This document shows positions 36,884 to 62,755 of a stretch of 64,000 nt of DNA, piece after piece; within the stretch, counting starts at the first letter, position 1; each line of letters starts with the position of its first letter. Source of the DNA: Jaapia argillacea MUCL 33604 (taxonomy: Eukaryota; Basidiomycota; Agaricomycetes; Jaapiales; Jaapiaceae); the NCBI GenBank assembly GCA_000697665.1, contig KL197729.1, forward strand, positions 390,121 through 454,120, written 5' to 3'. The notes beneath the pieces are model-generated. The model saw only the letters and a program-made list of their open reading frames with translations. It searched no databases and was not told where the DNA came from. The translations under genes were made by a program, and so were the position numbers.

Positions 36884-37743
36884 ATGTCCCAATTCTTCAA
36901 CCCCACAGAAACGGTAAGTTCATGCGTTTTATGACTCAGGCGCACAAACTGATGAGGTTGCATTTCAGTTTGGGATGTATGTCCCATCCATGGCATCGGG
37001 ACCCTTCAGTACTGAAGAAGACAGCTCGTTTAGTCAGTTCGATGCTGATTCCTCCTTCGCATTCATCGACAACGGCGCCATCGAACTCGAGGCTTTCGAC
37101 GTGTATACCGCCCAGACTATGATGAACGAGCCCCTTCATGGCGCCCCACAAGATCATATCACTTTCGACACCGCCATGGCCGGACACGCGAACTATGCCA
37201 CATACAGCCCTCAAAACCCCGACTTTGGTCGGGCTTTCGCCAACATGGCCGATGCTAGCCATGTTGCGCAATTCGTTCCTCGTGTCCCGGCCACCGGCGC
37301 TCATACCTCTCCTGATCAGATGACCATCAACACCAACCTCTCTCCCTCCTTCCTCCCTTTCAACAACGTCAGCCCGAGCATCGGAACTCCATCTTCCTCC
37401 GCCTCTTTCCCAACCCAATATCAAGATGTCAAAGTGTCGAAGGCGAATTTGAATGCAAGTAGAGCCCGACGTATACATCCAGACAGATCAGGAGGCTTCG
37501 TCTGTGAAATTTGCTCCCGTGATTTTACCCGGAAAAGTAATTTGGAGAGTACGTCGCCTCTTCCCCAATGGTGATATCCATACGTGATTCAGTGTGCTGA
37601 GAAACTTCCTTGCCCGATTTATAGCCCATAAACTCTCCCATTTGGGCAAGAAACCGTTCCGCTGCACTGAGTGCGAGCGTCCATTCCGTACTAAAAGTGT
37701 TCTTACTCGTCACGAGCGGAAGGTGCATCGTGCCCGCGTATGA
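36884..37743 (+). CDS. C2H2 zinc-finger protein, family A copy 1 (A1), 242 aa
   Basis: Exons are 36884-36913, 36969-37548 and 37625-37743. Exon 1 encodes only ten residues (M-S-Q-F-F-N-P-T-E-T), a layout kept in A2-A4. The middle is acidic and Asn/Ser/Pro-rich, with the family motifs M-M-N-E-P-L and V-S-P-S-I-G-T-P-S-S. A basic A-R-R patch precedes finger 1, C-E-I-C..F-T-R-K-S-N-L-E-T-H-K-L-S-H, and finger 2, F-R-C-T-E-C..H-E-R-K-V-H. Both fingers have normal ligands. The intron in finger 1 is phase 1. It is likely a sequence-specific nuclear regulator; the targets are unknown. Confidence 0.9.
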
Positions 37744-38561
37744 GAAGGTCGTCTCGCCTATTTTTCCTCGTTTTGTTGGTACTACTGATCCCGGGTCGTG
37801 AATACTTAATCTACCACACCGATTGGCCGGCCCACCTTCTATGCTCCGAGCCGCTCCTCGTCCGATCTTCCATCACTTCTCTAATTAGGGATCCGGATCC
37901 GCTACCTCTTCCTGACCATCTTTTGTGGTTGTTCTATCTGAGATAGTACAAGATATCATACGTGATGATCATAATCGAAGACCCGTCAGTTCGGTCAGCC
38001 ATGGCTGGAAAGAGAACGGGGATAAAGCGGAACCCTAACCCTTTTGGACAAATGTGATCGACAATCGTGCCAGCCACAAACCATGGCTTGTGGTCGGCGC
38101 TCATCACGAAAAAAGGGTTATACTATGACACACATCGTGCACGAGACTGGCAACCGTGATCCGAGACGAGAGCATGGTTCTTGTTTCCAGGCGATCGCGA
38201 CTACTGCTACCCCAAAGTTCTACAATCGTCCTGACTCCTGACTGTGGCTGAGAACCGGTGAGTTTCATCTGCCGTCTCACGACACCAATTTTGAAATTGA
38301 CAATCCGGGTCAATCTTTATTCCTACAGTCTTTCCTTCCACAGACCTTCTTCCCGAGCTCTCAGCTACGCAATCTACCCAGAACTTCACAGCCCAACCGA
38401 TAGCTCGGCTTGTTCTCACTCTCACACAAGTTGACACCGCCATGACGTACCCAACACGTTGCTCTGAAGCCTAATCTACGGCGCCCTGCCATGGCGCCAT
38501 CGCAGTGACTCTTTTCTCTCACACTCTCCCCGCACTCTCGGCGCAATCATCACCTGCGACC

Positions 38562-39835
38562 ATGGACGTCATTCCCCACTTCAGCGATACCCTCAACGAT
38601 GCTGAACACGCAAGGGGACTTCAACAATATCAATTTGGGGGAGGTAGGTGACGAGTAGGTGCTCATTTAGAGTGTCTGTTTCGGAGCTGATGTGAATTTC
38701 GTAGGGAGAATTCAGCCGTTTTTGCGTCTCCCTCTCGGCCTTCCACCCCGGTTCCACTGTACTCCAACCCCCAAAATCCTTTCACGACGAAATTTCGACT
38801 CCTTCATCCACTCACTTCTGACGGATCAGGATCTGGGACGGACCTCGTCCCCATTGCTGCCGAAGCTTCTACACGCCGACAATCATTTTCGCCTATGACG
38901 GAAAACTAGCAACATCGCCCATACTTTTCAATATACTCATAGAGGAAGGTGTCTACCATCCCATAGACGCAACGATAACTGGCGATACGCTATCATCCAC
39001 GATATCCCCGACAGTGCCCAAAACCTACCTCTCTCTCATCGTCTCGCTGTCGAATAGCTATTCCAGACCGAGTCCCTTCTCTCCCAGATTCCCTTGCGAC
39101 GGCCGGGGAACCGTGCCTGGAAACTCCTAGCTCGAACTTCCCGCCATCTAATGTCTACTTCGCAGGGTGATTCGTAACCGCGGACCACACCTTAGTCGTC
39201 TACTGTCCAGCTCTATCCACCATCATATCCTTCGACTCCTGAGAATCAACTCTCCCAGCACCGTCGAACCGGATCCTATGGTCGCAGTGTCAGTAATCGG
39301 GTACTATTCATGGTCGGAGACGGAGCTCTGGGCAGCTTGAACTCCCAGTAAATCTGATCCTTTCTCGAAGCACCTCCGAGGTTGACCTCGCTCGCCAATC
39401 CCAATCATGGTCTCCCCATGCCCCAGCCATATGGACACGATCATCGTGAACATCGACGGCGAGGACTTGTCTTCCACGCTCGTAGGGGCAGAAGTCCTTC
39501 TAGCAGAGACAGAGGAGGGAGCCGGAGCAGGGACGCAAACCAAGGAAGTCATAGATCTGCAAGAGGGTTTTCCCCTACCGTCAGAGACTCATCGTCATCG
39601 CGTTCCAATACAAAGTTATCTCCAGAGGCTCCGTTCGTGTACTCTCCATAGTCCCACTCCCTCCTTCGAATGAAGTCCGCCACCCCACTGGGACGATCAT
39701 GTCGATCCGCCTCCATCGTTGTCGCATTCACTCTCTATCTCAGCATCATCTTATTCTCATTGCCGAGCACGCTTTCTCTTGGATGTGCGTTTCTTCCTGA
39801 TGTATCGTGGCGAATTACCAGTCAACGTCACATTC
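38562..39835 (+). pseudogene. zinc-finger family B copy 1 (B1), degenerate and without fingers
   Basis: The ATG at 38562 aligns with the start of B2-B4 (H-F-S-D-T-L-N-D-A versus F-F-S-A-P-L-G-D-A). Downstream, DNA similarity to B2-B4 continues through the Ser/Pro-rich middle, including an H-R-R-G-L block near 39450, but in all three frames, so several frameshifts have accumulated. Similarity ends near 39835 before the C2H2 exons and passes directly into the flank of a GH127 remnant. The whole DNA-binding end has been deleted. Confidence 0.8.
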
Positions 39836-39879
39836 CACGATGCCGTCGATACTGAGGAGAGGTCGGTCGAGCGGTGAAC

Positions 39880-40110
39880 GAGTATATGGGGCAGTGCATT
39901 TGATAGGCAGGATCGGTAGGACGACCCAGCTCAAGCCAACAGCAGCGACACGCTTATGTTACCCAACCTACGGTTTGGCCAGAGGATTATTGGAATGAGA
40001 TTCAACTCCACCTTTCATTTACCCTCATTTCGACTCTGCTCAAAGGAGTCGGGTGGCGACAATCCGTCGCCTCTGTGTGTGCTATGGGATACACGGGGCC
40101 TGGATGAGCG
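39880..40110 (-). pseudogene. GH127 remnant in unit 2 (ends joined, middle deleted)
   Basis: On the minus strand, the first codons of GH127 (D-C-R-H-P-T-P-L-S-R-V, matching D-C-P-H-P-T-P-L-S-K-V at 35630) run straight into its last codons (the V-E-L-N-L-I-P-I-I-L-W-P-N-R region, matching 33049-33150). About 2.4 kb of the middle is missing. The gene's upstream region follows to about 40290. Confidence 0.8.
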
Positions 40111-40367
40111 ACTAGTGTCATGCCTCGTACTCTTAGGGAACCAAAACCCGGGATGTTGTTCACCGATGGCGATGTAAATGATTGTAAAACGATCATCGCA
40201 CGACGGATAACAAATAAAACAAGAAAATCGATGACCATTGACCGGAATGACCTTCGTCGCCCTGTTACTTACCTGTGCTCATACCGAGTGACCCGTATAA
40301 TAGACACGGAAGTGCTTCACTCCATCTGGGGCGTTGAGAACCCTTCGCACCTCGGGCGGGGCGGCGG

Positions 40368-41850: not shown

Positions 41851-42612
41851 CGGAGGAATAGCGGAGATTGGGCATCAACCGAACAAATTGAGGGTGTGCG
41901 CTCTGGACGACAGGGATAAGGACATGCTGGACCACGAGGGCTCATAGGTCCTTGGTGGACCATGGCGGAAACCTTGATTATTTATACGGACTATTACTTA
42001 ATGCTCTGAGGACCGCCTCTACTGAGCAATGCTGACTGAAGACGGCGAACATGCTATTCGTTGAACTCGCCAAGGCCATCATCGCTCTCACTACCTCACC
42101 GTGGGCTCTACTCTGTCTGCTAGGGGCTACTCATCAATTCTGGCAAATCCCCTTGTGGGTATATGCCACGTAAACGACCTTTTCCGATCCTGGCTGTGCA
42201 TCTCGTCGATGTTCTGAGCATGCGTCCTCCGTGTATGCTGAGGACGTTGGGATTCGGTGCTATCGGCACTTATCTTTACCATTCAAGCCGACGATCTTGA
42301 AACAACATCTTCTGCTCTGCTCTGCTCTGGCGACCATATCTACCTCGGTGTCAGTCGTTGCAGATTCGAGGATCTGGCACTGTTCGTTTGGCAGCTTCTG
42401 GTATGGCCTCTCGGATCGTGAAAGATGGATAAGACGGAGTCAGCCTGGCTATCTCAGGTGACGGTAATGTCTGGTCGGAGAAGCCCGATGTGAAGCTCTG
42501 CGGCACCGTATCATAATCCTCTGAAGATTCCATGCGAACTCCTGCTCTGAAAATCGAAGATTCCAAAGCTTGGATGAGCTGCGGAGCTGTCTGTACAGTG
42601 CTCGGAGCAAGG

Positions 42613-42620
42613 TATATAAA
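42613..42620 (+). promoter_or_regulatory. TATA box of A2
   Basis: TATATAAA 169 bp before the start codon. The upstream CCTAATAT element of A1, A3 and A4 is not present here. Confidence 0.6.
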
Positions 42621-42781
42621 TCTTCGTTGAACGATCCTTGTTGCCCATCCCTTCGTTCCCTTCCTCCTCCATCTTTATTCCATCACTTATTCATTTATTC
42701 CACTCATCCCCTTGAAGAGCCATTCATTCGCTCGCTCTTTCATCCTTTTACACATACATTCTTTTTTCTTCTCGTTTCCAC

Positions 42782-43617
42782 ATGTCTCAATATATCAATC
42801 CCGCGGAAGTGGTAAGCTAATGTCTTCGTGACTCACACACACAAGTTGATGAGCATATCTCTCAGTTTTCGATGGGTGACCCATCCATGATGTTAGGAAC
42901 GCTCAGTGCTGAAGACAACTCGGATAACAACATCGTTGCGCCCACGGCCTACACATTCCCCGACAGCAGCACCCTCGACTTCAATCCTTTCGATGGTTAC
43001 ACTGTCCCCACTGCGATGAACCAGCCCCTTCAGGGCTTGTCGCATGATTATGTCATGTCCGACACTTCCATGCTCCCCGAGCACGCGAACTACACCTCGC
43101 ACGGCTCTCAAAATTACGACCCCGGTTGGGTCAACATCAATACGGTCGACTCCCTCCACTCGGCACCATTCATTCGTCACCTCCCGGCTACCAACGTTCA
43201 CACCCCCCGTCGCCAGATGACCATCAACACCAACGTCTTTCCCGACATCCCCACTTTCGATGAGTTCAGCCCGAGTGTCGGAACTCCATCTTCGTCTGCC
43301 GCTTCTCCCACCACGTATTACCCAGTCAAAATGACGCCTGCAGGCTTGAGTGCCACTAGAGCACGACGTGCAGATCAGGAGAAGCCAGGAAAATTCATTT
43401 GTGGAATTTGCGGTGGGGATTTTACCCGGAGATCAAATCTGGATGGTACGCCATCGCTTTAATGATGTTTCCAACTGCAGGTCTTGACCAATTCTTAGCC
43501 CATACCCGCTCTCATTTGGGCGTGAGACCTTACAGTTGCACTGAGTGTAACGGTAAGTTCGGTACCAGGAGCGTTCTTAACCGCCACAAGCGAGCCCTGC
43601 ATCCTGATCGCGCATGA
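42782..43617 (+). CDS. C2H2 zinc-finger protein, family A copy 2 (A2), 242 aa
   Basis: Exons are 42782-42811, 42866-43445 and 43499-43617, the same lengths as in A1 (30, 580 and 119 nt). It has the family motifs M-N-Q-P-L-Q-G-L and F-S-P-S-V-G-T-P-S-S. Finger 1 is C-G-I-C..F-T-R-R-S-N-L-D-A-H-T-R-S-H; finger 2 is Y-S-C-T-E-C..H-K-R-A-L-H; both are complete. The finger-1 intron is phase 1 with a GTACGC donor. A3 is its closest relative by eye. Confidence 0.9.
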
Positions 43618-44506
43618 AAAGTTGGTCTTGCTTATCGATATCTTTTCTGGTCTTCTCGATGCTGATGCGGAACAGCAAACACCTTTTTCACCACACCATC
43701 GACTGGCAGGTGTCCGTCTCGACGTACTCAACCATCTTTTCACTCTTTTCTCGGCGATCTGGATATCTGCCCTCTTCATCGTTAGCCTGGCTTGTTCTTC
43801 CTAGTATAGTATTTGTTATCCTCTGCGTTAATTTAACGGGAGGTGTCCCTCGTCCCTTTATCGGTTAGCCCAGCCAAGACGGCAATAGGGCATTAAAACC
43901 CTAACCTTGTTTTGGACAGATGTGCAAACAAGGGCAAATACTTGCCGTGATGAGGGGATACACACTCCCTTCATTCCTGATCATGATGGACTTTCAGAAT
44001 CCATCGTCCGGGCCGTTGTGCACCCTTTGGATCGATCATCAAATGCCTTGCATCTCGCTCCCAATACAATGGCGATTGTGGGCGACAGTGGACACACTGC
44101 ATGGCAATAGTGATCGGACGCCACATCTCGCTCTTGTTTTTGGTAGTTCACGCCGACTCGTGTTGCCCTAAAGTCTTCAGCAAACCCCAGTCTCTGATCA
44201 TTCCACGTGTGTGAACTGTCCAGGTGATTCTACAGCCTCACGAAGTCCCTGAGCTCAGTACTTCCATTCATAGAACTCCTCCCCGACCCAGAGCTTTCCT
44301 CCCCATAATCCAGCCCAGGTCCTTCACAGCCAGACCCACGTCGCTGCTCAGTTCTCAATTCTCACGCTTTACGTTAGTGAAGTGACGTAGTAACCCAGCG
44401 CATTGCGCTGAACTGCAAGCCTATTTATCCCTGCAGTGCCATCCCACTCACTCCTTGTCTTCTTTCACAACCTCTTCGACTCACGGAGCAACCATCACCT
44501 ACTACT

Positions 44507-46347
44507 ATGGAATTTCCACCCCTCCTCATTTCTCCCCCTGGCGATGCTGGGATAGCAGGTCACTTCAATAATCTCAATTTGGAGGCAATAGACGACGAGT
44601 AAGCGCTCTCGGGCATTGTATGTTTCAAAGCTCATTCCAAATTCGTAGGAAGCTCTCAGTCTCATTGATACCTCCTACTCCACCTTCCACCACCTCTCCG
44701 CTGCAATCCAACCCAGGAAACTCCGACGACTCGGAATTATTCAATCTTTACATCCAGTTTCCCGACGAAGACAACAATCGCTTTCGACTAGGTCAGGGTC
44801 TTGGAGCAGAGTTGGTCCCCATTACTACCGAAGCCTCTACAAGCCCGACTATACTCTTCGCACAAGATGGTCCAGCATCACCCATGCCTTTCAATATACC
44901 CATAGACGAAGGCCTCCAGTCTCCCATAGAGGTCCCGGTAGCTGACTCATTCTCTACGATAACCCCAACGATACCGAAATTCTACCTCTCTCAATCCCTC
45001 ACTGTCCGACCATCGGAAGTATTTGGAGTTTATAGAGAACGACTGCGAGTGGTAACTTCACACCAGGACTTTCCACTCTCCGACTCTCTCGCGACTGTCG
45101 GCGAATTGTACCTCGGGACGCCGAGCTCGGACTTCCCATCATCGAATCCGAGTCCGTCAACTTCTGATAGCGATCCACCCCCGTGGATCGCACATCAGTC
45201 CGTTCCTGCGCAGCACGCTCTACCCACTCATCCCCCAACCCCCGACCTCCAACCTCCCCAGCATCGTCGTACTGTATCCACAGGAGATATTCACAGTGCT
45301 TGTGATCGCCGGGCAACTATTCATGTTCGGAGCAAGAGTTCTGAGCAGCTTGAACTCCCAGTAAATCTGCTTCTCCCTTCAAACCCCTCCGAGGTTGACC
45401 TCGGTTGCCATTCCATAAATCATGACCTCCTCACACCCCAGCCATATGAACGCGATCACCTCTCGAACGGTTTGGAAGGACTTGGCGTCGACGCTCGTAG
45501 GAGCAGAAGCCGTAGTACCTCCACAGAAGGCCGAGGTGGGAGCCGGAGCAGGGATGCCAGTCTGGGAGGGCACGGTTGCATTCCAAGACGAGCTTCTCCT
45601 TACAGACGTCGAGGCTCGTTGTCATCGAGTTCCAACAACCAGTTGTCCCCCGAGGCCCACTTCGTCTACCCTCGCAGCTCCACTTCCTCCTTCGACGACG
45701 GAAGTCCGCAACCACACTGGGATGACCATGCGGGTCCACCTCCATCGCCCTCACCCTCGCCCTCCATCTCAGCATCGTCGTATTCACCATCGCCAAGTTT
45801 ACTTTCTCTTGGAGATACATTCCTTCCTGACGATCGCGGCGAGGGATCAAGCCATCAGGACAACCCCGGACCACACTCGACGTCTATCTCGGCTTCTATT
45901 CAAGCTGAGGGGCAAGATGGTGGTGTTGAATTAGATGGAGAGGATGTTAGGAAGTGCAGGACGACTCGGGCGGCGAGGAGGGCGAGCGATGGCAGGCGAA
46001 AGGACGAGTACAAATTTTTTTGCAAGTTTTGTAAGGAAGGTTTTACGAGGAAGGAAAGCTTGAAGAGTGAGTAACGAAGCATATTGTTGTTTTCGCTGGG
46101 ATATCATTTGCGTCGAGTTCTGTCTCATGTTACTTTGATGACTGACCTTTACTTCGAACAGGTCACTATCGCTCACGCGAAGGGATCAAGGGGTTTCTTT
46201 GTAACCTTTGCCGGAAACCCTTCTCAAGCAAGAGTGACTGTAACCGCCATGTGAAGCATGTACACCGGTGAGCCTTAACCACAGCTTCTACGTGGTGGTT
46301 AGCAGCGGCTGACACTTTGTAGGGATGTCAACTCTGGGCCCGACTAG
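44507..46347 (+). CDS. zinc-finger protein, family B copy 2 (B2), 546 aa
   Basis: Exons are 44507-44598, 44649-46066, 46162-46267 and 46323-46347; the total is 547 codons and the phases close. Most of the protein is disordered, rich in Ser, Pro and Arg, with S-R-S-R-S and P-S-P-S-P-S runs, then the basic patch R-A-A-R-R-A-S-D-G-R-R-K. Finger 1 reads C-K-F-C..F-T-R-K-E-S-L-K-S-H-Y-R-S-R: the last ligand, normally His, is Arg. Finger 2 (C-N-L-C..H-V-K-H-V-H) is canonical. The last exon adds only eight residues ending N-S-G-P-D. A likely nuclear regulator with one certain zinc site. Confidence 0.88.
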
Positions 46348-46479
46348 GGTGTCGTATTCGACTCTACCTCATTGTTGACCAACGCACTGGTACCCGTCCT
46401 TCTGTCCCTCGAATGGTCGTGTTTCATGTCATCCGAACCTCAACCGCTCACTAGATCATCAACTTATCCATGGAGTCTG

Positions 46480-46890
46480 GAGGACAGCATCGTTTCTTGG
46501 ACGGAACTGGATTGCTCGGTCAGAGTTGACGTGTAGTGTGGGAGTGTGGCGAAGAGGGTAGACGAAAGGTGGAGTTGACCCTCATTCCAATACTCCCCTG
46601 AGCAAACCGGGGTTGTGCGGCATGCGGGTGTGGCTGCTGTTGGCTTGAGCCTGGTTCCAGTTCTACCGATCCTGCCTTGTCGAATTAACGGCTTTATGGA
46701 CTCAGTCACCGCTCAGCCAATCTCTCCTCAGTATCAACGCCACGTCGACGGAAATTTAACGTAGAAGTCAACGATGATGGATGGTGGTCCCCTTTCAAGG
46801 TTCATCGAGGACAACCCAAGAACCAAGGTCTCGAAGGGGTCGGATGGACGACAATCCATCGCCTCTGTTTGTGCTATGGGGGGAGACTAT
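46480..46890. pseudogene. GH127 remnant in unit 3, with its 3' piece inverted
   Basis: The last GH127 codons (V-E-L-T-L-I-P-I-L) are read on the plus strand at about 46565-46660. The first-codon region near 46850-46880 keeps the original minus orientation. The interval of about 46500-46830 is the reverse complement of the matching interval in unit 4 (about 51850-52090). As in units 2 and 4, the middle of the enzyme gene is missing. Confidence 0.75.
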
Positions 46891-47812
46891 CCTGGACGAT
46901 GGTGTGGAGGGGTCAGTCAACATAGACGGGAATAAAGTCGTTTGAACGTTGCTCGTGGTCTTAGAAGACCCGAACCCGGGCCGTTTCCAAATGATGCTGG
47001 CGCAGATGCTTGCAACATGGCGAAATGGTGTATGCGATGTCGCGGAAAAACATGAAATCAAAGTCAAGACAGGAGCGGCATTCGTCGCCCTACTACTTAT
47101 CTGTAAGTGAGACCCAGTGACCCATCATATTGAGCCCCGGAAGTGGACTGAGACATACAGAGTCCCAAGAGCTGATGGTCCGTAGGTCCTCCGTGGACTG
47201 TTGCGGGACCTTCCTTGAATCAACTGCAGCGACGGAGTGGCGCAAAGCACTGCATGCTAACTGTCGACGACGAACTTGTTATGTTGATGAACTCGTTGGG
47301 GCCATCATCGCGCTCATTGACCTGCCGTGGACTTTGCTCTGTCGCTGCTTGGGGCTACCCATCAATTCGCGCACAGACCCTGTGCATTGACGTCGAGTCT
47401 GCCACGTAAACGACCGTTCCGACCCCTGGGCTGTGCTAGCTGTGCATCTCCTTCCTCCCGTGGCACCCTCTGTGTGTGCTGAGGATGGAAATTTGCGTGA
47501 CTTCGTCGGGACTCAGTGCTGTCACCCTATCTCGGCCGTCCTAGCCGATAATCTTGAAACAACTTCTTCTGCTCTGTGCGTTCTGGCAACCGTATCTTCC
47601 TCGCTGTCAGTTATCGCAGCCTCGAGGAGTTGGCACTGTTTACTTGGCATCTTCTGGTATGATATCTCTCAAACCGTGAAACACGGATAAGAGGGAGTGA
47701 GTCTGGCGATCCCAGGTGACTTCTAACGCTCTGTGCGGGATCAGCCCAATGTGAAGTTTTGCGGTACCGTTATTACTCTCATTCCCCTGCAAGACGTTAT
47801 TTTCTCAGAAAA

Positions 47813-47820
47813 CCTAATAT
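47813..47820 (+). promoter_or_regulatory. CCTAATAT element upstream of A3
   Basis: CCTAATAT 60 bp before the TATA box; the same element and spacing as before A1 and A4. Confidence 0.4.
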
Positions 47821-47872
47821 ATCGAACCTTGGGGAGCTGCGCAGCCCGTCCGTACGGCGCACGGGATGGGGG

Positions 47873-47880
47873 CATATAAA
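47873..47880 (+). promoter_or_regulatory. TATA box of A3
   Basis: CATATAAA 149 bp before the A3 start codon. Confidence 0.55.
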
Positions 47881-48021
47881 CGATTGTTACAGCCTATACG
47901 TTTCTGCGTGCGCTTCCTCCTCCATTATTATTTGTTCATTTATTCATTCGTTCGACTTGCTCTCCGAAAGAGCCACTCATTCTTACATTCATTCTGACAT
48001 TTATTCATTTTTAATTTCCAC

Positions 48022-48861
48022 ATGTCGGGATACTTCAACCCCACGCAACCTGTAAGTTCATGTTCTTCGTGACTCAGACACACGTGTTAATGGACTTGCC
48101 CATTAGTTTGGGATGGGCGCCCCATCCATGGGGCCGGGAACCTTCAGCGCTGGAGAAGAAAACTCAGACTACCAGATCGATGCGCCCTCCACCTTCGCGT
48201 TCACCGACAACAGCGCATTTGGCCTCGATACTTTCAATGGTTACACTGGCCTGACTGCGATGAACCAGCCACTTCAGGGCTTGCCCTACGATCATGCAAT
48301 GTACGACACTTCCATGGTCCCGGGCCACGCGAATTATACCACATACAACCCTCAAAGTCCCCACTCCGGTTGGGCCAACACCAATATGGTCGATGCTCAT
48401 CACTCAGCACCATTCGTTTATCATCTCCCGGCCACCAATGTTCACGCCTCTAATCCCCAGATGACCATCAACACCAACATCCCTCCCTACTTTCCCCCTT
48501 TCAACGACTTCAGCCCGAGCGTCGGAACTCCATCTTCGTACACCTCTTCTCCCACCCCAGTTCAATCCGTCAGGGTGTCGCCTGCAGGTTTGAGGGCCAG
48601 TAGAGCACGACGTGCGGATCGGGAGAGGCCAGGAGCTTTCATTTGTGAAATTTGCTTCCAGGATTTTACTCGGAGATGTAATCTGGATGGTACGCCACCT
48701 CTTCAACGATGATTCCAACCGCAGGTCTTGACCGGTTTTTAGCCCACACCCGCTCTCATTTGGGTCTGAAACCTTACGCCTGTACCGAGTGTACCCGTCA
48801 ATTCGGTACCAAAAGTGTTCTCAACCGCCACAAGCGAGCCCTGCACCCTGACCTTGCATGA
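48022..48861 (+). CDS. C2H2 zinc-finger protein, family A copy 3 (A3), 243 aa
   Basis: Exons are 48022-48051, 48107-48689 and 48743-48861. The middle carries M-N-Q-P-L-Q-G-L-P-Y-D-H and F-S-P-S-V-G-T-P-S-S. Finger 1 is C-E-I-C-F-Q-D-F-T-R-R-C-N-L-D-A-H-T-R-S-H; finger 2 is Y-A-C-T-E-C..H-K-R-A-L-H. All zinc ligands are present. Exon layout and intron phases equal A1 and A2. Confidence 0.9.
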
Positions 48862-51656: not shown

Positions 51657-51899
51657 GGTGTCGTATTCGAGTCCACCTCATTATTGATCAACGCACTGGT
51701 ACCCGTCTTTCTGTCCCTCGAATGGTCGTGTTTCATGTCATCCGAACCTCAACTGTTCACCAGGTCATCGACATGTCCATGGAGTTTGGAGCCATCATTT
51801 CTTGGATGGAACTGCACTACTCGATGCCTTGATTCTTCGGTTGTCCTTGGTGAACCTTGAAAGGGGACCACCATCCATCATCGTTGGCTTCTACGTTAT

Positions 51900-52440
51900 G
51901 TTTCCGTCGATGTGCCGTTGATACTGAGGAGATGTTGGGCGAGCGGCGACTGAGTCTGTAAAGCTGTGAATTTGATAAGGCAGGATCGGTGGGACTTGAA
52001 CCCGGCTCAAACCAACAGCAGCCACACCCTCACGACGCTCAACCCAGGTTTGCTCAGAAGAATATTGGAATGAGAGTCAACTCCACCTTCCGTCTGCCTC
52101 CCCGCCATACCCCACGTCAACTCTCCTCAAAGGGGTCTGATGGACGACCAATCCATCGCCTCTGTTTGTGCTATGGGGGTGTGACTGTCCTGGATGATGG
52201 TGTGGAGGCGCCCGTCAGCATAGACAAGAATCAAGTCGTTTGAACGTTCCTCGTGGTCTTAGAAGACCCAAAACCTGGCCGTTGACAAATGACACTAGTG
52301 CAGTTGCTTGCAAAATGGGAAAATCGGAACGTATCTGACAGGATCAGCTTCGATGTTGTGGAAAAACATGAAATAAAAGTCGAGACAGGAGCGGCATTCG
52401 TCACCCTACTACTTATCTGTAAGTCAGACCCATCTTACTG
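51900..52440 (-). pseudogene. GH127 remnant in unit 4 plus its upstream region
   Basis: On the minus strand, the last GH127 codons (about 52050-52100) directly adjoin its first codons (about 52120-52160), with the middle absent as in unit 2. The sequence continues to about 52440 into the GH127 upstream region, including GTGGTCTTAGAAGACCC. The orientation is the same as the intact gene. Confidence 0.78.
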
Positions 52441-53195
52441 AGCCCCGGAAGTGGACTGAGACGTATACAGAGTCCCAAGCAAACTTCGAATCTCAAACGA
52501 AGGTCAGGATTGTTACTAGCCAGTATCAGCAAATTACATCTGCGACTTCAGAGTTGAGGGTCCATAGGTCCTCCGTGGACTGTTTTGCAGGACCTTCCCT
52601 TAGTCAGCGGCGGAGTGGCGCAGAGCACTGCATGCTAACTGTCGACGACGAACTTGTTATGTTGATGAGCTCGTCGGGGCCGTCATCGCGCTCATTGACC
52701 CGCCGTGGACTTTGCTCTGTCGCTGCTTGGGGCTACCCATTAATTCTCGCAAAGACCCTGGCACTGTAGCGTCGAGTCTGCCACGTAAAAGTCCGTTCTG
52801 ACTCCTGGGCTGTGCTGGCTGTGCATCTCCCTAGTCTCCCGAGCTTGCACCTTCTATGTACGCTGACGATGGAATTCTGCATCACTTCGTTGGGACTCTG
52901 TGTTATCGCCGCTTTCTTCGCCGTCCAAGCCGATAATCTTGAAACAACTTCTTCTGCTCTGTATTTTCCGGCAACTATCCCTCTCTCACTGTCAGCCGTT
53001 GCGGCCTCGAGGTGTTGGCACTGTTTAATTGGCGTCCTCTGGCATGACGTCTCTGAAATCGTGAAATATGGATAAGACGGAGTGAGTCTCGCGATCTCGG
53101 GTGCCCTCTCATGCTCTCTGTCGGAGACACCCGATGTGAGGTTCTGCGGTACCGTATTATCACACTCCTTCCTCCGAAGACTCGAGCTCAGAAAA

Positions 53196-53203
53196 CCTAA
53201 TAT
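53196..53203 (+). promoter_or_regulatory. CCTAATAT element upstream of A4
   Basis: CCTAATAT 59 bp before the TATA box, the same spacing as in A1 and A3. Confidence 0.4.
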
Positions 53204-53254
53204 CTCGAAGCTTGGATGAGCTGCGCAGCCGTATGTACAGTGCTCGGGACGGGG

Positions 53255-53260
53255 TATATA
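53255..53260 (+). promoter_or_regulatory. TATA box of A4
   Basis: TATATA 177 bp before the A4 start codon. Confidence 0.55.
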
Positions 53261-53431
53261 GACCCTCCCTGAACGATTTATCACAGCCCATTCCTTCTTC
53301 TTTCCGTTCTCCCTTCCCTTCATACTTATTCATTCACTTATTCATTCGTTCCACTCATCCTCTCATAGAGCCATTCATTTGCTTACTCTTTCGTTCTTTT
53401 ATACATACATACTTTTTATTATTATCCCGAC

Positions 53432-54297
53432 ATGTCCCGGCGCATCAACCCCACGGAAATGGTAAGTTGATGTTTCTTCACTACTCAGATACACAAGTTG
53501 ATGAGGACACCTTTCAGCTCGGGATGAATGACCCATCAATGGCATTGGAAACCCACAGTGCTGAGGAAGACAACTGGTATAACTGGCAGATGGAGACAGC
53601 CCCCACCTTCACGGACACGAACATGGACACCTCCTGGCCCGAAGCTTTACATGAGGACACTTTCTCGACTGTGATGAACCAGCCCCTCCATGCGCCGTAT
53701 GATTATGGCCATGGCGTATTCGACAGCTCCATGACCTCCAGACACGCGAGTTATACCCCATACTATCCCCAAAATCCTGACCCCAGTTGGGGTTACGCCA
53801 ATTCGGTCGATGGTCGTCACTCGGCGCCATTCGTTGATCATGTCCCGACCACCGGCGTTCACACCACTTCTCGCCAGATGACCATCGACACTAACGTCTC
53901 TCGCTCCTTCGCCCTCAACGATATAAGCCCAAGTGTCGGAACTCCATCCTCTTACACCCCTTCCCCCTCCCACTATCAACCGGTCAGAATGTCGCAAGCG
54001 ACAAAGAGCGCAAGTAAAGCGCAACGTGCAAATCCAGAGAACCGAGGAAACTTCATATGCGAAATTTACTTTGATGACTTTACTCGGAAATGTAATCTGA
54101 ACGGTACGCCACCTCTCCCATGATGTTTCTCTCCGCAGGTAATCCATCGTGCTGAGACGTTGCTTTCCCCATTTTTAGCCCACATCCGCTCTCATTTGGG
54201 TCAGAAACCCTTTCGCTGCGCTCAGTGTCACCGCGGATTCGGTACCAAAAGCGTCCTTACTTGTCATGAGCGAACCCTGCATCCTAACCGTGGATAA
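53432..54297 (+). CDS. zinc-finger protein, family A copy 4 (A4), 244 aa, finger 1 altered
   Basis: Exons are 53432-53461, 53518-54103 and 54179-54297; the phases close and there is no stop. Family motifs M-N-Q-P-L and I-S-P-S-V-G-T-P-S-S are present. Finger 1 reads C-E-I-Y-F-D-D-F-T-R-K-C-N-L-N-A-H-I-R-S-H: the second zinc-binding Cys is Tyr (TAC). Finger 2, F-R-C-A-Q-C..H-E-R-T-L-H, is complete. The protein can be made, but its DNA binding must differ from A1-A3. It may be a young pseudogene or an altered regulator. Confidence 0.85.
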
Positions 54298-55254
54298 AAA
54301 GTTCGTCTGGCTTATCTTTCCTCGTTCCTGGGTGCTGATGCTGATGCCGAATAGTGAACTCTTTGTTTACCTCACCAATTGGTTGGCCATTCTCCTGTTG
54401 ATCTTACTCCAGCATTCGTTCTTTTCTCTACTCCGAGGGCGATCTGGATACGCGACCCCTTTATTGTATGTCGACATGTCCTTCCTAGTATAGTGCACGT
54501 CTCCCGTTTGATAATCACAAGTGAAAGTTGACCTTTCCTCCTTTGTTTCGTCAGCCAAGTGGCGGAGCTAAGACGGCCTTAATCGATTGATCCCTAAACT
54601 TGTTTCAGACAGATGCGATCAGCCCTTTTGAGTCAATAATGGCAATCACTTGTTTTAGTAGGATACGTATTCCGTTCATTCTCTGTGAAGAACCACTGAT
54701 CATGATGGACTTGATGTAAATACAGAATCCATCGGTTCGGTTGTTGTCATCCCGAACTTACTGTATCATCAAAAACGTCGCGAAACTCTCAAACAATGGC
54801 GATTGTGGGTGTTAATGGACACATATCATGCATGGAGGTAGTTACGCTGATCCGGTCGCGCGCCACTCTTATTTTTGGGAGATTATGCCAACTCCTTGTC
54901 CTGGAATTCTGCAGCTGCAGCCAATCCCAGCGTCCGATCGTTCCGGGTGAGAACCAGTCAGGCGGTGAGTCTGCGCTGCCTCTCGAAGCCCTTGAACTCG
55001 ATAATGGAAATCGATTTTCAGAGCTTCCATCCGCAGAACTTCCCCCAGAGCTCTCCTCCACACAATCCAGCCCAGACCTTTCACAGCCCGGCCGATAGCT
55101 CTGCTTAATTCTCGTACCTCGATGCCACTGCAGCTGCGCACCCCAGCGCATTTCTCGGAAGGCTTATTTAGCCTTACAGTGCCTTCGCAGGGGCTGGCAA
55201 TTTTACTTTTCTGACAACCTCTTCGACCTCGCGGCGCAACTGTTTCCTACCACT

Positions 55255-57083
55255 ATGGACTTGCAATCATTCTTCAGTGCTCCCCTCGGCGATGTTGGGA
55301 CAGCAGGGGACTTCAACAATGTCAATTTGGGAGCAATGGATGATGAGTAAGTGCTACGTTGCGGGGTCTGTTTCGAAGCTTATTTCAAGTTCGTAGGGAT
55401 TTTTCGTTCTTGTTCATACCTCCCACCCCCATTCCGCAGTACTCCAACCCAGGAATCTTTGATGACGAAACTCTCGACTCCCTCATCCATTGGCCCGAAG
55501 AAGAGGATAACAACCGCCTTCCGTTGGATCAGAGTCGTGGGGCAGAGTTCGTCCCCATCACCGCCGAAGCCTCTAAAGCCCCGTCCATCCTTCTCGTCCA
55601 AGGCGGGACACGACCAACGTCATCCATGCCCGTCAACATACCCATCGAGGGAGGTCTCTACCCCCCCATAGACGTCCCGATAACTGAAGCTGATACGCTA
55701 TTATCCACGATACCCCCAACAATACCGAAACCCTATCCCTCTCATCCTACCACTCTCCAGCCATCCGAAATAATTGACCCTTGTCGAGAACAACTTCGAG
55801 TGGCTATTCCACGCCATGAGCCTTCTCTCCCAGATTCCCTCGCGATTTCCGGGGGCCCATACCTGGGAACTCCTGGCTCGGGCTTTCCATCATCGAATCC
55901 GAGTTCCTCAACTTCCGAGGGTGGTTCATCACTGTGGAACGCACTCCAGTCCGTTCCTACACCCCACGCTCTACACACATCTCCTTCAACCTCCGACCAT
56001 CAACTCCCCCGGCATCGTCGTACCATATCCAATGGAGGTATGCACAGTGCCAGTGCTCGGGCACCTATTCATGGTCGGAGCCAGAGCTCTGGGCAGCTTG
56101 AAACCCCAGTAAAGCCGATTCTCCCTCGAAGCCCCTCCGAGGCTGACCTCGGTCGCCATTCCATAAATCCTGACTTCCTCATGCCCCAGCTTTTTGGAGC
56201 CGATCATCGCGAACATCGACCGGGAGAACTTGTCATCGGTGCTCGCAGGGGCAGAAGCTCTACTTCTAGCAGAGGTAGAGGTGGGAGCCTGAGCAGGGAC
56301 GCAAGTCGGGGAAAGTATAGATCTGCAAGACGACCTTCTCCCTACGGACAAAGAGGCTCATCCTCATCGTGTTCCAATACACAGTTGTCTCCAGAGGCTC
56401 CTTCCATGTACCCTCATAGTCCCACCTCCTCCTTCGAAGGAAGTCCACAATCTCACTGGGATGATTATGCAGATCCACCTCCATCGCCATCGCCTTCGCC
56501 GTCTATCCCAACATCATCTTATTCCCCATCGCCAAGCGTACTTTGTCTAGAACAAGCGTGCCATCTAGATGATCGTGGCGAGGGGTCAAGCAATCAAGGC
56601 AATTTCAAATCACACTCGATCCCTATGTCGGCTTCAAGTCAAGATGGAGGGCAAGATACGAATGTTGAATCTGACGGAGGTGACTTTGGGCCATGCAAGA
56701 CGACTCGGGCAGCGAGGAGAGCGAGTGAAGCCAGAAGACGGGGCGACCACCACTTTATTTGCAAGTATTGTAAGGAAGGTTTTACGAGGAAAGAAAGCTT
56801 GGAAAGTGAGTGCCGAAACAATTCGTCATTTTCTCCGGAATATTATTTGCATCGAGCTCTCTCCCTCGTTAATCTGATTAGCTAACCTTGTCCCTCCTGA
56901 TAATAGGTCACTATCGCTCGCGCAAAGGTATCAAGGAATTCCTTTGCAACCTTTGCCGGAAAGCTTTCGCGACTGGGAGCGATCGTAATCGTCATAAGAA
57001 GAGCGTACACAAGTGAGCCTTCAATACAGCTTCTGCACGGCTTTCCGCAGTCGCTGACACCTCGTAGGGATATCAATCCTTGA
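55255..57083 (+). CDS. zinc-finger protein, family B copy 4 (B4), 540 aa
   Basis: Exons are 55255-55346, 55397-56805, 56907-57012 and 57068-57083; the phases close. It has the same domain order as B2 and B3: disordered Ser/Pro/Arg-rich body, the basic patch R-A-A-R-R-A-S-E-A-R-R-R, finger 1 C-K-Y-C..E-S-L-E-S-H-Y-R-S-R with Arg for the last His, then a normal finger 2 C-N-L-C..H-K-K-S-V-H. The tail is shorter (D-I-N-P). B3 and B4 are the closest pair in family B by eye. Confidence 0.88.
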
Positions 57084-58918
57084 CCAGAAGTTCCAGAGCT
57101 TGAAGAAGGCTATGAAGTCTGCCCTATGATTGATCGAGATTCAACACCCTTGTTGGTTGTTCTCTCTGTCGCGCGTCATGTTTCATGTCATCCGAATTTT
57201 CACTAGGTCGTCGAAGTATCCGCGGAGCAAAAACCAGTGCACCTCTTCTTGGATGGCAGTGTTCGGACCGATCTGTTTTCTGGGGTTGTTGAGGTTGCGT
57301 TCTTGGATTCGGATGGTCGGGAAATATCTGATCGGAGGAATCGTTATGGACCGTCTACTGGGGAACAAGACCCGCTTTCTCGCTTGCTTTTGCCGACTGC
57401 AGTATTGGTGTAACGCTGCTATAGCATTGCTTTACCACATCGTCGGCCTTGCTACTTATTCAACAGGTGCAAATTCCTGTAAATTCGCTAGTCCCTGAAA
57501 AATTGTGGTCTTCCTGCCAATTTGATGTGTGCTTCCACTCTCACTTTGATGATACTGTAACCCCAAATTTGAATCGCAGGGGGCTTGTAATTGAACAAAG
57601 TTTGGCGATCATTGCAGGGACTCGCGCGAGTCGGCATGTGCCGGACAGGCGGCCACGTTACGCCACGTTGTGCATGCCACGTTTACGCCACGAGCACGGC
57701 CCCTGAGATCGTCAAACAAACATGTTCCATTCTCCGTCATTCCATGGAACTTCTGAAGTGCTCTGAACTTATCTCCACCAATGTAATTCATCCTCGCGCT
57801 CTCCCTCGATTTCAGTCCTTTCCGCGCTACCGTCGACGCCCTGGTTTGCTTTTCAATTCGGCCTCTGATTCGGAACTCACACTGAGTAATTATTACCGAT
57901 TTTTTTGGGGGGGATGACAACGAGAGAGGGGAAATGGTCCTGGCATTAATCTGCACCAAACTGTCTCATATTTGGTACCATCGTCTCCTCGATCGTAATT
58001 TCGAAAGTCGTCAAGTTACCACTCTGGGGCTGTGTGTCATTCACTCCAGCCTGGTCCGTCCCGTCGAGTCTCCAAGTATGACGTTAAGTTGGGAACTCTA
58101 CCTCTCCCAACTCGTCCGAGTCACGGCTGGCAGGGATGAGACGTAAGATTGTTACAAAGGTACCGTCGATCCGATGAAATGAACTCCTCAGCTTCGCTGG
58201 CCTGATTGATACTGTGTTTCAGGCTAACGGATCCTCAAGGCCCTCATATTTTGCTTAATCGTAGCCACCGACATCAGGTTTCGGAGGAACCCGCAGATGT
58301 CAGTCACGTTGTTGCAACCGCTGTGCTATCCTGAGCATTTGGTAAACTTCTTCTTGAAGATGCAATCTCTGTGGAGGTACTCGTGCTGACGGAGAGCAAG
58401 CCGTGTCAGATAGCCGAGGCGTTTCTGGGACTGCATCATTACGCGAAGGGAACATTCACGTCGCAAGCAGGGACTTGGGAAAGAGGTGGCGTAATCATCC
58501 CGAAATGAACCCCTTCTTTCCCAGATCGTCTTTGCGACTCCTTAATCATTTCTATGCTTTTTTAACATTTCCACCGCAACTACTATGTGTCTGGGTGCGC
58601 TCGCTTGATCTAGTTCGGAATCAATATCAGTCTGGAGGATGATCCCGCGAACCTAATACAGGTCCACGTTGCACAATACGACTTTACGTCTCCTCCGTCT
58701 CCGCGAGGCAAAACTTGGTGGTATGGGATATATAAGAGCAGTATTGGACAGTAAACACCAGAGGGCACTGCGCTTTCTCGTTGCCATCGGTTGTAAAAAT
58801 TTCTTGCCTTTTGATTTCTTGACTCGTTTTTAATCATTCATTCTTCTCCACCCCCACCCTATAATCTTCGCATCTTCGCCTGTTTTCTTGCCGTTGCCCC
58901 CTTTCATTACCGCTATTC
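57084..58918. other. 1.8-kb gap between B4 and A5 with no supported gene
   Basis: No GH127 remnant was recognised here, unlike the earlier units. Short reading frames have no domain signature. A T7/G7 homopolymer junction lies near 57900-57915. The last 300 bases hold the A5 promoter. Confidence 0.5.
58729..58736 (+). promoter_or_regulatory. TATA box of A5
   Basis: TATATAAG 190 bp before the A5 start. A CCTAATA-type element (58652-58658) lies 77 bp upstream, farther than in A1, A3 and A4. Confidence 0.55.
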
Positions 58919-59720
58919 ATGTCTCAAAACCAAAAACCGTTCGCCCACGTCTTCTGAATTTCCAAACATCTCAACTGATTGGTCGATTTGACAGGGATTG
59001 GATGGAGAACATTTCGATGCCTCCAGAGGATGCCTCCCTTGAATACATGTACCTGATTGACTCATTCTATGGCGTCCCAGCCTTGCCGTTCACGGTCTAC
59101 CCTCCGGATTCAGGTCGATACCCAACCGGCGCACGCCACTCCTCCGCTCCCTCAGAGGTCATATCCAGTCTGACTACGTCCCTGCCATACCGCACTCATT
59201 TCTCTAACCCATATACGAACTCCCAACCCACACACCTTTCGCCGGCCGACCCATCGCTTCAGACCTACGCTTCTCAAATCGCCCCCGAGGATTTGGGACT
59301 GCCGGCACGTCGTGCCGTCGCCAATGGTGGTGCTTATGGCATATACAGCCACCCTGATCCTCCTTCCAACATAATCAGCAACCCTTTCGCCCCGCCCTGT
59401 GCATCATCTCCCTCCGTTCGCCGTCTCAATGTCGCTTCAAGTGCGATGGTGGAGGCAAGCAAAGCGAGGCGAAAGGGCCCAAATAAATTGGGCAGTTTTC
59501 ACTGCCCATCTTGTGACCAAGATTTCACAAGGGGGAGCAATCTGACAGGTGTGCTTCCCCCCTTGCGCTGTCGTCTTATTTGTGCTGAGACGGTCATTCT
59601 CTGGGTTTCTCAGCCCATTTACGTGTCCATCGCAACGAACGACCGTTTTGTTGTAACGTGTGCGGCTGTACATTCACAACGCGGAGCGTTCTCAACCGCC
59701 ACATCAAGAAATTACACTGA
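58919..59720 (+). CDS. C2H2 zinc-finger protein, family A copy 5 (A5), 226 aa, divergent
   Basis: Exons are 58919-58938, 58995-59548 and 59614-59720; the phases close. The first exon is again tiny (M-S-Q-N-Q-K). The middle has diverged strongly from A1-A4. The basic patch K-A-R-R-K precedes finger 1, C-P-S-C-D-Q-D-F-T-R-G-S-N-L-T-A-H-L-R-V-H, and finger 2, F-C-C-N-V-C..S-V-L-N-R-H-I-K-K-L-H; all ligands are present. The intron positions equal A1-A4, so A5 belongs to the family but split off earlier. Confidence 0.85.
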
Positions 59721-60867
59721 CGCAGGCTCGCACAATGAGTACGATCCTTCATCGCTTTACTCCGTCGTTGGTGATGATTGATTGCCGACGTCGCAGATCG
59801 TAAACCATCTTTCTTCCTATCTATCTGCTTGTTGTGCTTGACAACCCAACGAACTTTGTTCTCTATTCCTGGTCACTCTCGTGGGCCAGTTACCCCAATA
59901 ATTGTGATAGCTCTGGTGGTGATCATCAGCCGATTGAGAATCCGTTTCGCAGAGTGTTACACAACTTCTTTTTGACTTCTTTGATTATCCAATTCCCCGA
60001 ACATAATCCTCTGGTAGATGAAACCTTGCCGGAAGGTCCTCGCTCTTTGTACATGCCCACGCAGCGGCACTTTTAATGTTGTAGTATCCTGTTTGGCCAA
60101 AACCTTAACCTTGTATTCAGTATTTCCTATTCGGCACAACGCTCGCAGGGCCTTATCGCGACCTGGAACAACCGTCTTTGTTCATCAACGACCTTAGAGG
60201 GTGGACGATCGCTGGGTTCCGTCCATCACATTATAGTTGGGTGCCTCTGATTTATAGCAACAACGTCGCTGGCGAAGACGGCACAAGCACCGGGCATCAG
60301 CATCTTTCCGGAGGTGACGCTAAAAACTTTGCTACACACGGCGGAAACCATTGTCTTACTCTATTCCGGCTCTGGGTAGGCACACGTTGCTTTGCCAGAT
60401 CTTTGCTGCGATGGCAACCACTGATGCCAGGTTCCCGCTCCTTACCTCTCATCTTCCCACTACTTGTTCTCCGGCTGTCAACGACTCAAGCCCTTGTCTT
60501 TGGAACAATGAGCGAAACTATGCATCTCCTGTCATCTTTGTAGAGAAGTGATCTCCCCGCGATGCTTGTCCGATTCAGAGTCCGAGAAGATGTCTGGCGC
60601 TGGCTGGACGTGATTTCCATTCAGTTCAAATAGTGCTCAAATCGCAATTCCCTTGGGCCTCCATCCACCATCCTTTGCGATTTCGTACTTTTTCCGCAGC
60701 ACCCTTCGACAGAGTCTCTTTCACCGCCCTTACTGAGCACGGCTGGCTGTGCTTCTCTCGTGACCCTTTCCAGCACAATCCTCTGCACCTTGGTTATAGC
60801 CTTTGTCCCACTGCCACCGCCTCTCAATTCCAAACCCCTGCTTTCTACGACAACAAGAACCGCCTTC
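59721..60867. other. 1.1-kb gap between A5 and B5 with no supported gene
   Basis: Several open stretches of up to 120 codons exist, but none has a domain signature, and B5's upstream region must lie here. It has no clear similarity to the regions between A and B in the other units. Confidence 0.5.
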
Positions 60868-62755
60868 ATGAGTACTGCACCAGAGGTTGTCCATGTTTCC
60901 GATGGTGCAGTCCAATCGAAGGGGGTGGTGGGGGCGGTGGAACAGTAAGCCATTACCTGCTATGACTATCGTTTACTAAGGCGGTGATTGCAGCCCGTGG
61001 GACAGAGAGCTCTGTGAACTTCTCCTTTTCAACCGCCATACCCTCGAGCCGGAGACCTTTAGCCCTGCTGCTGCCACACGCCAACGACTTTCTCCAGCAT
61101 CCGTAACGACCTATGCCACAACTACGGAACCTAACTGCTCTACCGAAGGGAACCAGCCCGGCCCCAACATGCCTGGGTATGATGATGTTGCACCAGAAAT
61201 CGATGTCGTCGGCGTTCCCGAAAGCCCGATTGTTGCAGAAGGTGGAGGCCAACTTCGCCAAGCCCTTCACCTCACCATTCCAACCACTACATCTCACTTC
61301 CCCGATCCATCTTCATATATCCATTCCACGGAAGAGATGGATAGGATCTATAGCGCTGCTACTACCGGTACGCCATCTTTTGAACAATTGACGTCAGGAT
61401 GCACGTCTGAGTCTTTCCGATATCCAGACTTCCAGCGACCTCTCTCTTCTCTTTCCGGTCCTTTGCGTGAAGGCTCGATGGCATCAGAGACATTGCAAGG
61501 CATTGCTGCTTCAAACTCAAGAAAGAGCAATAACTCGTTACCTTGGACAGCTCATCCAGGCTCCGCTGATCCTTCTGGTCTTGGTCCGCCTCGTCCAATC
61601 CCCGTCCGCCGCCGAAGCAAGTCCGATGCAGGTCCCCAGACAAGTCAAAGTCGACGAGAAAACGATGCTTTCTCACAACCAGAATCCGACCTGTTGGCGC
61701 CTTCGCTACATCGTCGTGGTCGCTCCGAAGTTTCGAGCATCACCTCTGGGATGTTAGATGGGAGCTGCTATCTCCAAGTTCCTCCTCAAAACCATCACTA
61801 TTCACCGTTCTCTGATGCTTCGAGGGGTCGGGGTCAAACTAGAGCTTCTAGCACGACAACGAGTGGGGGCCCAAGCCGTTCTACAAGCAGTCGAATGCCT
61901 TCAAGGGACCCATCTCCCTATCCACCCCATGGCACATTTCTTCGCGGTATTCCGCCTCTGGGCACAGGGAGTCAGACATCATTCGGAGATCGGTCTTCTC
62001 TTTACCGCAGCACATCCTCATCATCGCTTGGTAGTTCATTCCATGGCAGTCCATTACCCGATAGCCCACACACCAATCCCGGTAGTCCATCCGTCCCTGG
62101 CAGTCCATACCTCCCTGGTAGTCCGTATCATGGCGGCGACTACGGCTTCCCACCTCCGTCTCCATCGCCTTCGCTCAACTCTCGTTATTCGCCGTCGCCA
62201 ATGCTTCCGTTTTGTGGGGACGAATTTCCAATCAGTGACCATGTCGAAGGCTCGAGTCAAGGACCAAGCTATTCGTCCGGTCTGGGAAGGACACATCCCG
62301 ACGACAGTCTGTGCAGCCAGGATGAGAGCGCTGTTCCCCTTCATGGGCTTCCACTTCCGCCGTGCGCCAGATCCCAGGCTTTAATCGATGCGGCTGAGAG
62401 GAGGCGCAAGAAGGAACACATATGTTCCTGCGATTTCTGTGGGCAGGGGTTCACTAGGAAGGAAGGTCTCTACAGTAAGCATCATATATCATCCTTTACA
62501 TTCGTTCAGATTCAATCTTGGATCTATCTTGCTTGGTGAGCAACTTTCTTACCTCCTTTCCTACTAGACCACTTGAATACAGAGAAGAAGCATCCCTGCA
62601 AGAAATGCGGGAAACTCTTTGGTAGGCAGAGCGACTGCAGTCGTCACATGAAAAACAACAGTTGGTGAGTGATGACTAGACAGACATTTGCCGGAGATTG
62701 TGTTACTCACGCAAGTTGTGGATGCTTCAGTGGCAAGATATTCACACCGCCTTAA
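60868..62755 (+). CDS. zinc-finger protein, family B copy 5 (B5), 559 aa, divergent
   Basis: Exons are 60868-60944, 60994-62474, 62568-62664 and 62731-62755; 560 codons and the phases close. The body is Ser/Pro-rich, with repeated P-G-S-P and P-S-P-S-P tracts and S-R-G-R-G-Q-T-R-A-S. The basic patch E-R-R-R-K-K leads to finger 1, C-D-F-C..F-T-R-K-E-G-L-Y-N-H, with the next His seven residues later (H-L-N-T-E-K-K-H). Finger 2 is C-K-K-C..S-D-C-S-R-H and then Cys in place of a second His (M-K-N-N-S-C). Both fingers thus have unusual ligand spacing. The exon layout equals B2-B4. Confidence 0.83.

Follow-up and report, generated by a model that had tools for sequence, protein, structure and literature searches.

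Zinc-finger regulators in large tandem clusters are known above all from vertebrates, and in mushroom mating loci paired homeodomain genes are held together as partners. In the present study, we describe an array in a basidiomycete-type fungus in which two types of C2H2 zinc-finger genes, here called A and B, follow one another in alternation. The stretch analysed (the window) is 64,000 nucleotides long and corresponds to C21:390121-454120 of its own genome (43.7 Mb), C21 being the contig that carries the array. As with the partner types of the mating-locus homeodomain pairs, two types are repeated here as linked pairs, but the genes encode zinc fingers and run head to tail, the contig has no match to Homeobox_KN or STE3, and in several units the two halves are not of the same age. 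On the comparisons given below, the array is probably a birth-and-death cluster of two paralogous two-finger C2H2 types that would act as nuclear regulators. The cluster is fungal and is made of a two-gene unit, and one entire lineage of its copies has a three-ligand finger that is conserved.

Among the described systems, an open-access literature search found no title or abstract opening describing such an array, and the nearest account was that of tandem-duplicated C2H2 genes in Agaricomycotina (PMC12295980). That study also concerns mushroom-type fungi with tandem and dispersed duplicates, and its Ka/Ks (nonsynonymous to synonymous substitution) ratios are below 1 in all clusters; the part of it used here describes no alternating two-type unit, paired sub-arrays or three-ligand finger type. 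The mammalian KRAB clusters, as presented in parts of PMC3126818 and PMC2865497, share with our array tandem segmental duplication, pseudogenes and degenerate fingers, and an expansion of zinc-finger regulator clusters in metazoans is treated in part of PMC5588721. In contrast to the KRAB clusters, the proteins here have two fingers each, a Pfam scan of 11 proteins of the two types (A1-A6, B2-B6) gave no match to the KRAB effector domain, the contact residues are conserved overall, and two types alternate.

Results

Between 36884 (start of A1 exon 1) and 62755 (end of the last B5 exon) we found nine gene-like loci together with a relic, B1, all on the plus strand (Table 1). An earlier note on this DNA had reported ten loci in strict alternation, forming five pairs. 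The alternation, the strand and both ends stood, but one of the ten is a relic and the array does not stop at five pairs, because searches of the own genome with the A3 and B4 proteins, in which the best candidates alone were scored, placed A6, B6, A7 and B7 to the right of the window on the same contig. The array therefore has at least seven pairs in two sub-arrays, namely alpha (pairs 1-4, units of about 5.3 kb) and beta (pairs 5-7, units of about 8 kb). The order along C21 is A1 (B1) A2 B2 A3 B3 A4 B4 A5 B5 A6 B6 A7 (B7), followed by B-only loci; within 36884-62755 the repeat spacing is 5.2-5.9 kb. Strict alternation of seven A and seven B genes would arise from random order with a chance of 2 in 3432; duplication of pairs yields such an order without selection, which would explain it. 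Among the best A3 matches, none was listed between A7 and C21 501509. Off the contig, the best candidates scored were weak (best E 1e-6 for A3 and 0.002 for B4) and mostly covered the C-terminal part, two of the A3 matches extending into the body (on C10 from residue 56, E 0.034; on C27 from residue 88, E 0.056). One scan of a viral contig collection, made with the B2-B4 alignment and neither with A nor on the genome contig collection, gave no relatives.

The duplicated unit is an A gene, a B gene and their spacers. Units 2 and 3 align over 4730 columns (72%), units 3 and 4 over 4700 columns (74%), and units 5 and 7 in two main blocks covering about 7.4 kb (about 80%), with the spacers included in every case. 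Since the units are collinear through intergenic DNA, whole pairs were duplicated. In the coding-sequence trees of both A and B, the split between copies 5-7 and the other copies had 100% support (200 bootstrap replicates). These findings agree with the proposal of the earlier note that the pair was the unit of duplication. Between the two sub-arrays no alignment was reported at E 1e-6, and A or B proteins compared between them are 28-33% identical. The A5/B5 pair had been singled out as the most divergent; it is indeed set apart from pairs 1-4, but it opens a second sub-array, which has three pairs, and is not an odd end pair. The copies from A2 to B4 had also been called the most alike, which holds for A2-A3 (63% identical) but not for A3-A4 (53%), no closer than A1-A3 (57%).

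Within the sub-arrays the two halves of a unit often differ in divergence. Most weight falls here on the synonymous divergence (dS), which, given with bootstrap intervals, was 0.62 (0.47-0.85) for A and 0.33 (0.26-0.41) for B between units 3 and 4, 0.20 (0.13-0.29) and 0.62 (0.49-0.75) between units 5 and 6, 0.21 (0.14-0.29) and 0.62 (0.51-0.75) between units 6 and 7, and 0.19 (0.12-0.27) and 0.36 (0.30-0.45) between units 5 and 7. In windows of 300 columns along alpha, the closest units were 2 and 3 through the A gene, as well as in two of the three windows on the spacer (one tie). At the far end upstream and in five of the seven windows on B (two ties) units 3 and 4 were closest, and in one window at the A start units 2 and 4 were. 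Along beta, units 6 and 7 were closest just upstream of A (90-95%), all three were about equal in the A gene (85-89%), units 5 and 7 were closest in B (79-94%), and the order shifted again downstream. Three-sequence pattern counts differed between the A and B genes (alpha, p 3e-9; beta, p 7e-5) and among five beta segments (p 2e-15). Hence the view that pairs were simply added in steps is weakened: the halves of four of the six unit pairs differ in dS, which disfavours stepwise addition within the sub-arrays, although the trees alone do not show it. Built separately, the A and B trees share the split of 5-7 and had no well-supported conflict within the sub-arrays. Because the halves so often differ, a stepwise order has probably been blurred by exchange or conversion, and gene conversion or unequal exchange between units would be the simplest reading.

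The gene models were built by comparing the copies and not from transcripts. In-frame models with GT-AG introns were obtained for seven A and six B copies, B7 among them with an internal stop, so that open spliced frames are kept in 7/7 A and 5/7 B copies. A1-A4 have exons of 30, 580-586 and 119 nt, as the earlier note had given for A (30, about 580 and 119 nt), and A5-A7 have a similar but not identical layout of 20, 554-578 and 107 nt (A5, 20, 554 and 107 nt). For B, the long exon, the 106-nt exon and the tiny last exon were confirmed in B2-B4, but a first exon had been overlooked and the open frames comprise four exons (92-95, 1364-1418, 106 and 16-25 nt); those of B5-B7 measure 77-80, 1427-1493, 97-100 and 10-25 nt (B5, 77, 1481, 97 and 25 nt).

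Copies have also decayed: B1 is a relic, B7 has an internal stop and A4 has lost a cysteine. The B2-B4 proteins matched B1 (tblastn, E <= 0.01) in fragments only, in three frames with several stops and reaching at most residue 425 of 546 (B2), and gave no finger match between A1 and A2 at the same threshold. The B7 stop was considered as an intron artefact and this was rejected; the surrounding GT-AG stretch, counted by hand, measures 44 bases and would break the frame, and B7 is therefore called interrupted. The stop may also be an assembly error.

Table 1. Coordinates of the array features (window positions unless C21 is given)
Feature	Position	Strand	Exons and remarks
A1 gene	36884..37743	+	exons 36884-36913, 36969-37548, 37625-37743; 242 aa; two canonical C-terminal C2H2 fingers
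B1 relic	38562..39813	+	B-body pieces in three frames, several with stops; without finger exons
A2 gene	42782..43617	+	exons 42782-42811, 42866-43445, 43499-43617; 242 aa
B2 gene	44507..46347	+	exons 44507-44598, 44649-46066, 46162-46267, 46323-46347; 546 aa; R at finger 1 fourth-ligand place
A3 gene	48022..48861	+	exons 48022-48051, 48107-48689, 48743-48861; 243 aa
B3 gene	49850..51656	+	exons 49850-49944, 49995-51358, 51466-51571, 51632-51656; 529 aa; R at finger 1 fourth-ligand place
A4 gene	53432..54297	+	exons 53432-53461, 53518-54103, 54179-54297; 244 aa; second cysteine of finger 1 replaced by Y
B4 gene	55255..57083	+	exons 55255-55346, 55397-56805, 56907-57012, 57068-57083; 540 aa; R at finger 1 fourth-ligand place
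A5 gene, first of beta sub-array	58919..59720	+	exons 58919-58938, 58995-59548, 59614-59720; 226 aa
B5 gene	60868..62755	+	exons 60868-60944, 60994-62474, 62568-62664, 62731-62755; 559 aa; E at finger 1 fourth-ligand place; last cysteine codon of finger 2 split by last intron
A6 gene	C21 457035-457856	+	outside window
B6 gene	C21 459024-460851	+	outside window
A7 gene	C21 465197-466025	+	outside window
B7 gene, interrupted	C21 467201-469104	+	one internal TAG at C21 467751-467753
B8, B-like without A	near C21 472519-473807		no clean model obtained
B9, shortened B-like	about C21 480960-481864		no finger-1 motif listed; truncation from reading the sequence
alpha sub-array, units 2-4	42029..57076	+	collinear repeats: A, A-B spacer, B, B-A spacer
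beta sub-array, part of first unit in window	57473..64000	+	units 6 and 7 outside, genes C21 457035-469104

The A and B proteins both end in two C2H2 fingers, of which finger 1 is split by an intron at the identical site, after the first base of the second codon past a conserved N-L. Across 20 sources, 26 half-finger places were listed; a second finger was found for 19, all with the intron at the shared site, and seven gave none by that pattern. Among these 19 split-finger genes, four lie on C21 to the right of the array, two on C27 and one on C10; A4, which lies outside the search pattern, has the same intron site. As the site is common to all, A and B are taken as probable old paralogs inside one split-finger C2H2 family. 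The body measures 176-190 residues in A and 471-509 in B, consists to 59-69% of a crude set of disorder-promoting residues, and is followed by a basic patch in front of finger 1. Two C-terminal fingers behind a long body are likewise found in Msn2-type proteins (Msn2/Seb1 type). The two fingers of Adr1 (PDB 2adr) were matched by A3 at E 1e-10 and by B4 at 7e-9, though finger 1 of B differs from Adr1 in having no fourth ligand; the best solved-structure matches are general multi-finger proteins and orthology to Adr1 is not implied. With the PF00096 cut-off of 25.2 bits, 7 of the 11 proteins scanned passed (A1, A2, A3, A5, A6, B4 and B6), and A4 (18.1 bits), B2 (20.1), B3 (22.5) and B5 (20.9) fell below. 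The pattern C-x2-C-x12-H-x3-5-H/C detected both fingers in A1-A3 and A5-A7 and finger 2 in A1-A7 and B2-B8, and failed for finger 1 in A4 and B2-B8.

The fourth zinc ligand of finger 1 is missing from 7/7 B copies read (B2-B8, B8 by eye), where R, E or L stands in its place, and is a histidine in 7/7 A copies and in 7/7 other split fingers compared. In B5 a histidine occurs further along the finger 1 linker. Between alpha and beta copies of B, finger 1 is identical at 97/153 places and finger 2 at 69/153. Since it is conserved between the two sub-arrays, the three-ligand finger 1 of B appears not to be decaying, though A shows such conservation too. In B5-B8 the terminal ligand of finger 2 is a cysteine in place of histidine. 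The last intron of the B5-B7 models cuts the codon of this cysteine, and the tiny last exon thus completes finger 2.

The ratio of nonsynonymous to synonymous divergence (dN/dS) was below 1 in every pair with estimable dS and was 0.38-0.65 in 15 within-group pairs, whose dS was 0.19-0.65. Bootstrapping of six unit pairs, each in both families, gave dN/dS intervals that lay below 1, with a highest bound of 0.98. The contact residues of C2H2 fingers are numbered -1, 2, 3 and 6. At these positions A1-A7 differed in 37/168 comparisons against 224/420 for the other finger positions, and B2-B7 in 41/120 against 149/300.

Discussion

We consider that a birth-and-death cluster of two paralogous regulator types probably accounts for this locus. 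Unequal crossing-over in a duplication-prone region would add whole A-B units, and later exchange or gene conversion would homogenise some halves and not others. Both types are predicted to act as regulators in the nucleus; each has a long body that is probably disordered, two C-terminal fingers and a basic patch, which likely serves nuclear import. The A-type protein is a predicted DNA binder with two canonical fingers, whose copies probably bind similar sites, because their contact residues are nearly the same, and probably differ in expression, dose or activation region. The B-type protein has a finger 1 that has long been non-canonical and a finger 2 of CCHH or CCHC type; it is for these reasons predicted to bind DNA more weakly or to use finger 1 for protein contact, and it may compete or cooperate with A-type proteins. 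The array would offer a natural series of 14 positions for tracing the fates of paired regulators, namely retention, exchange, and loss of one partner or of a zinc ligand.

Several of our results weigh against parts of this account. The halves are not clearly different in dS for units 2-3 (A 0.45, B 0.59) and 2-4 (0.65, 0.57), alpha quartet counts including unit 1 do not separate the A and B histories (p 0.16), and unequal rates can mimic the three-sequence counts. The trees contain no well-supported conflict within the sub-arrays (A2+A3 86, A5+A7 69; B5+B7 51, with B2-B4 not resolved, 51). As to the fingers, A too is better conserved between alpha and beta in finger 1 (120/204) than in finger 2 (102/204), B4 (26.3 bits) and B6 (33.2 bits) pass the zf-C2H2 cut-off, and within A5-A7 the contact and other finger residues vary equally (4/24, 10/60). 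Disorder and nuclear import are predicted from composition and the basic patch.

Neutral local amplification, in which most copies would be redundant and drifting and the array itself would have little function, is rather unlikely in our judgement. In its favour, the region duplicates easily whatever the gene, as the adjoining 5-30 kb stretch is tandemly repeated as well, a single copy each is a relic, interrupted or damaged in a finger, and dN/dS values are 0.38-0.65; against this, the open frames noted above and the finger pattern (except finger 1 of A4) have been kept at within-group dS of 0.19-0.65, and all six bootstrapped unit pairs have dN/dS intervals below 1. It is unlikely that A and B are obligate partners of a two-component regulator whose pairing is held by selection, even though seven pairs alternate, both separately expanded sub-arrays are still paired, and a finger 1 non-canonical in every B copy read yet conserved would fit a protein-contact surface. 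The alternating order by itself is no proof of partnership, because duplication of pairs gives the order and the halves can then diverge separately. In the comparisons of units 3-4, 5-6, 6-7 and 5-7 the A half and the B half in fact differ in age (not clearly so for 2-3 and 2-4), and members have been lost singly, as in the relic B1 beside A1, the B7 stop beside an open A7 and the damaged A4 beside an open B4; B8 and B9 stand without an A match listed between A7 and C21 501509. An upstream element shared by A and B was sought and rejected, since no 6-, 7- or 8-mer is common to the upstream 500 bases of all 13 genes. By type, one 7-mer (with its complement) occurred in 6/6 B and four 6-mers in 7/7 A upstream stretches, counted without a shuffle comparison. 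A partnership may thus exist, though the unequal ages and the loss of single members weaken the case for it. More specifically, the pair might form a two-component module in which A binds DNA with its two canonical fingers and the three-ligand finger of B is a repurposed protein contact, such regulator-plus-modulator cassettes being reshuffled by conversion into new combinations of halves; we regard this as quite doubtful.

Under the arms race or self-recognition role that the earlier note had suggested, the copies would diversify in the manner of KRAB zinc-finger clusters, so that they recognise targets that themselves change, for instance transposons or non-self. Local expansion with decay and turnover of copies would fit, and retroelement and DUF6589 sequences lie nearby, but dN/dS is below 1 in all estimable pairs, and diversification of contacts was rejected because contact residues vary less overall than other finger residues. 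According to the part of PMC3126818 used here, KRAB gene duplicates are frequently under positive selection at contact residues, although changes at these residues are avoided between orthologs. The proteins here also have two fingers instead of long arrays. A mating-type link was rejected for want of a homeodomain pair or STE3 receptor: of 62 genome matches to STE3 (PF02076) and three to Homeobox_KN (PF05920), none was on C21, other homeodomain models not having been searched. Together with the short introns, these matches on other contigs would fit a basidiomycete. An arms race or recognition role is hence very improbable, while the array may have a role unrelated to mating type, or parts outside the fingers may be under selection. 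The birth-and-death cluster is accordingly the reading that we prefer.

Surroundings of the array

Directly left of the array, a second tandem array of other genes occupies window 5056-30656, with segments present 2-3 times at 71-89% DNA identity. Its frames matched PAF-acetylhydrolase above the cut-off (one of two scanned) and short-chain dehydrogenase below it (two of three scanned). Further frames in the window are a retroelement-type aspartyl protease match (RVP_2, 32 bits) at 1890-2873 (-), with gag-like frames to 3975 by eye, and a GH127 beta-L-arabinofuranosidase match at 34149-34754 (-).

A repeated element occurs in opposite orientations at window 46538-46834, 51821-52098, 39841-40037 and 33042-33160; it sits comparably in the 2-3 and 3-4 spacers, after B1 and left of the array, and is perhaps a mobile element. 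The long B6-to-A7 spacer of beta contains a DUF6589 frame (PF20231, 114 bits; L049 8609-9706). The DNA after B7 recurs just before B9 at C21 477071-480020 (L053; 74% over 3.0 kb), a trace of another unit.

Outside the alternating array, half-finger places with GT at the same site were found at window 19793-21075 (-) and 31561-32445 (+). The script pattern gave no second finger for either, another listing has one at 19793-19864, and a relative of the minus-strand place lies at C21 554695. To the right of the array, FAD-binding and kinase frames are followed by the split-finger genes at C21 501-523 kb. These are four plus-strand genes of another split-finger subfamily (C21 501680, 508755, 516520 and 523098; L051, L052), 6.6-7.8 kb apart, which have the contact residues RSND and RSDR in common with one C10 gene.

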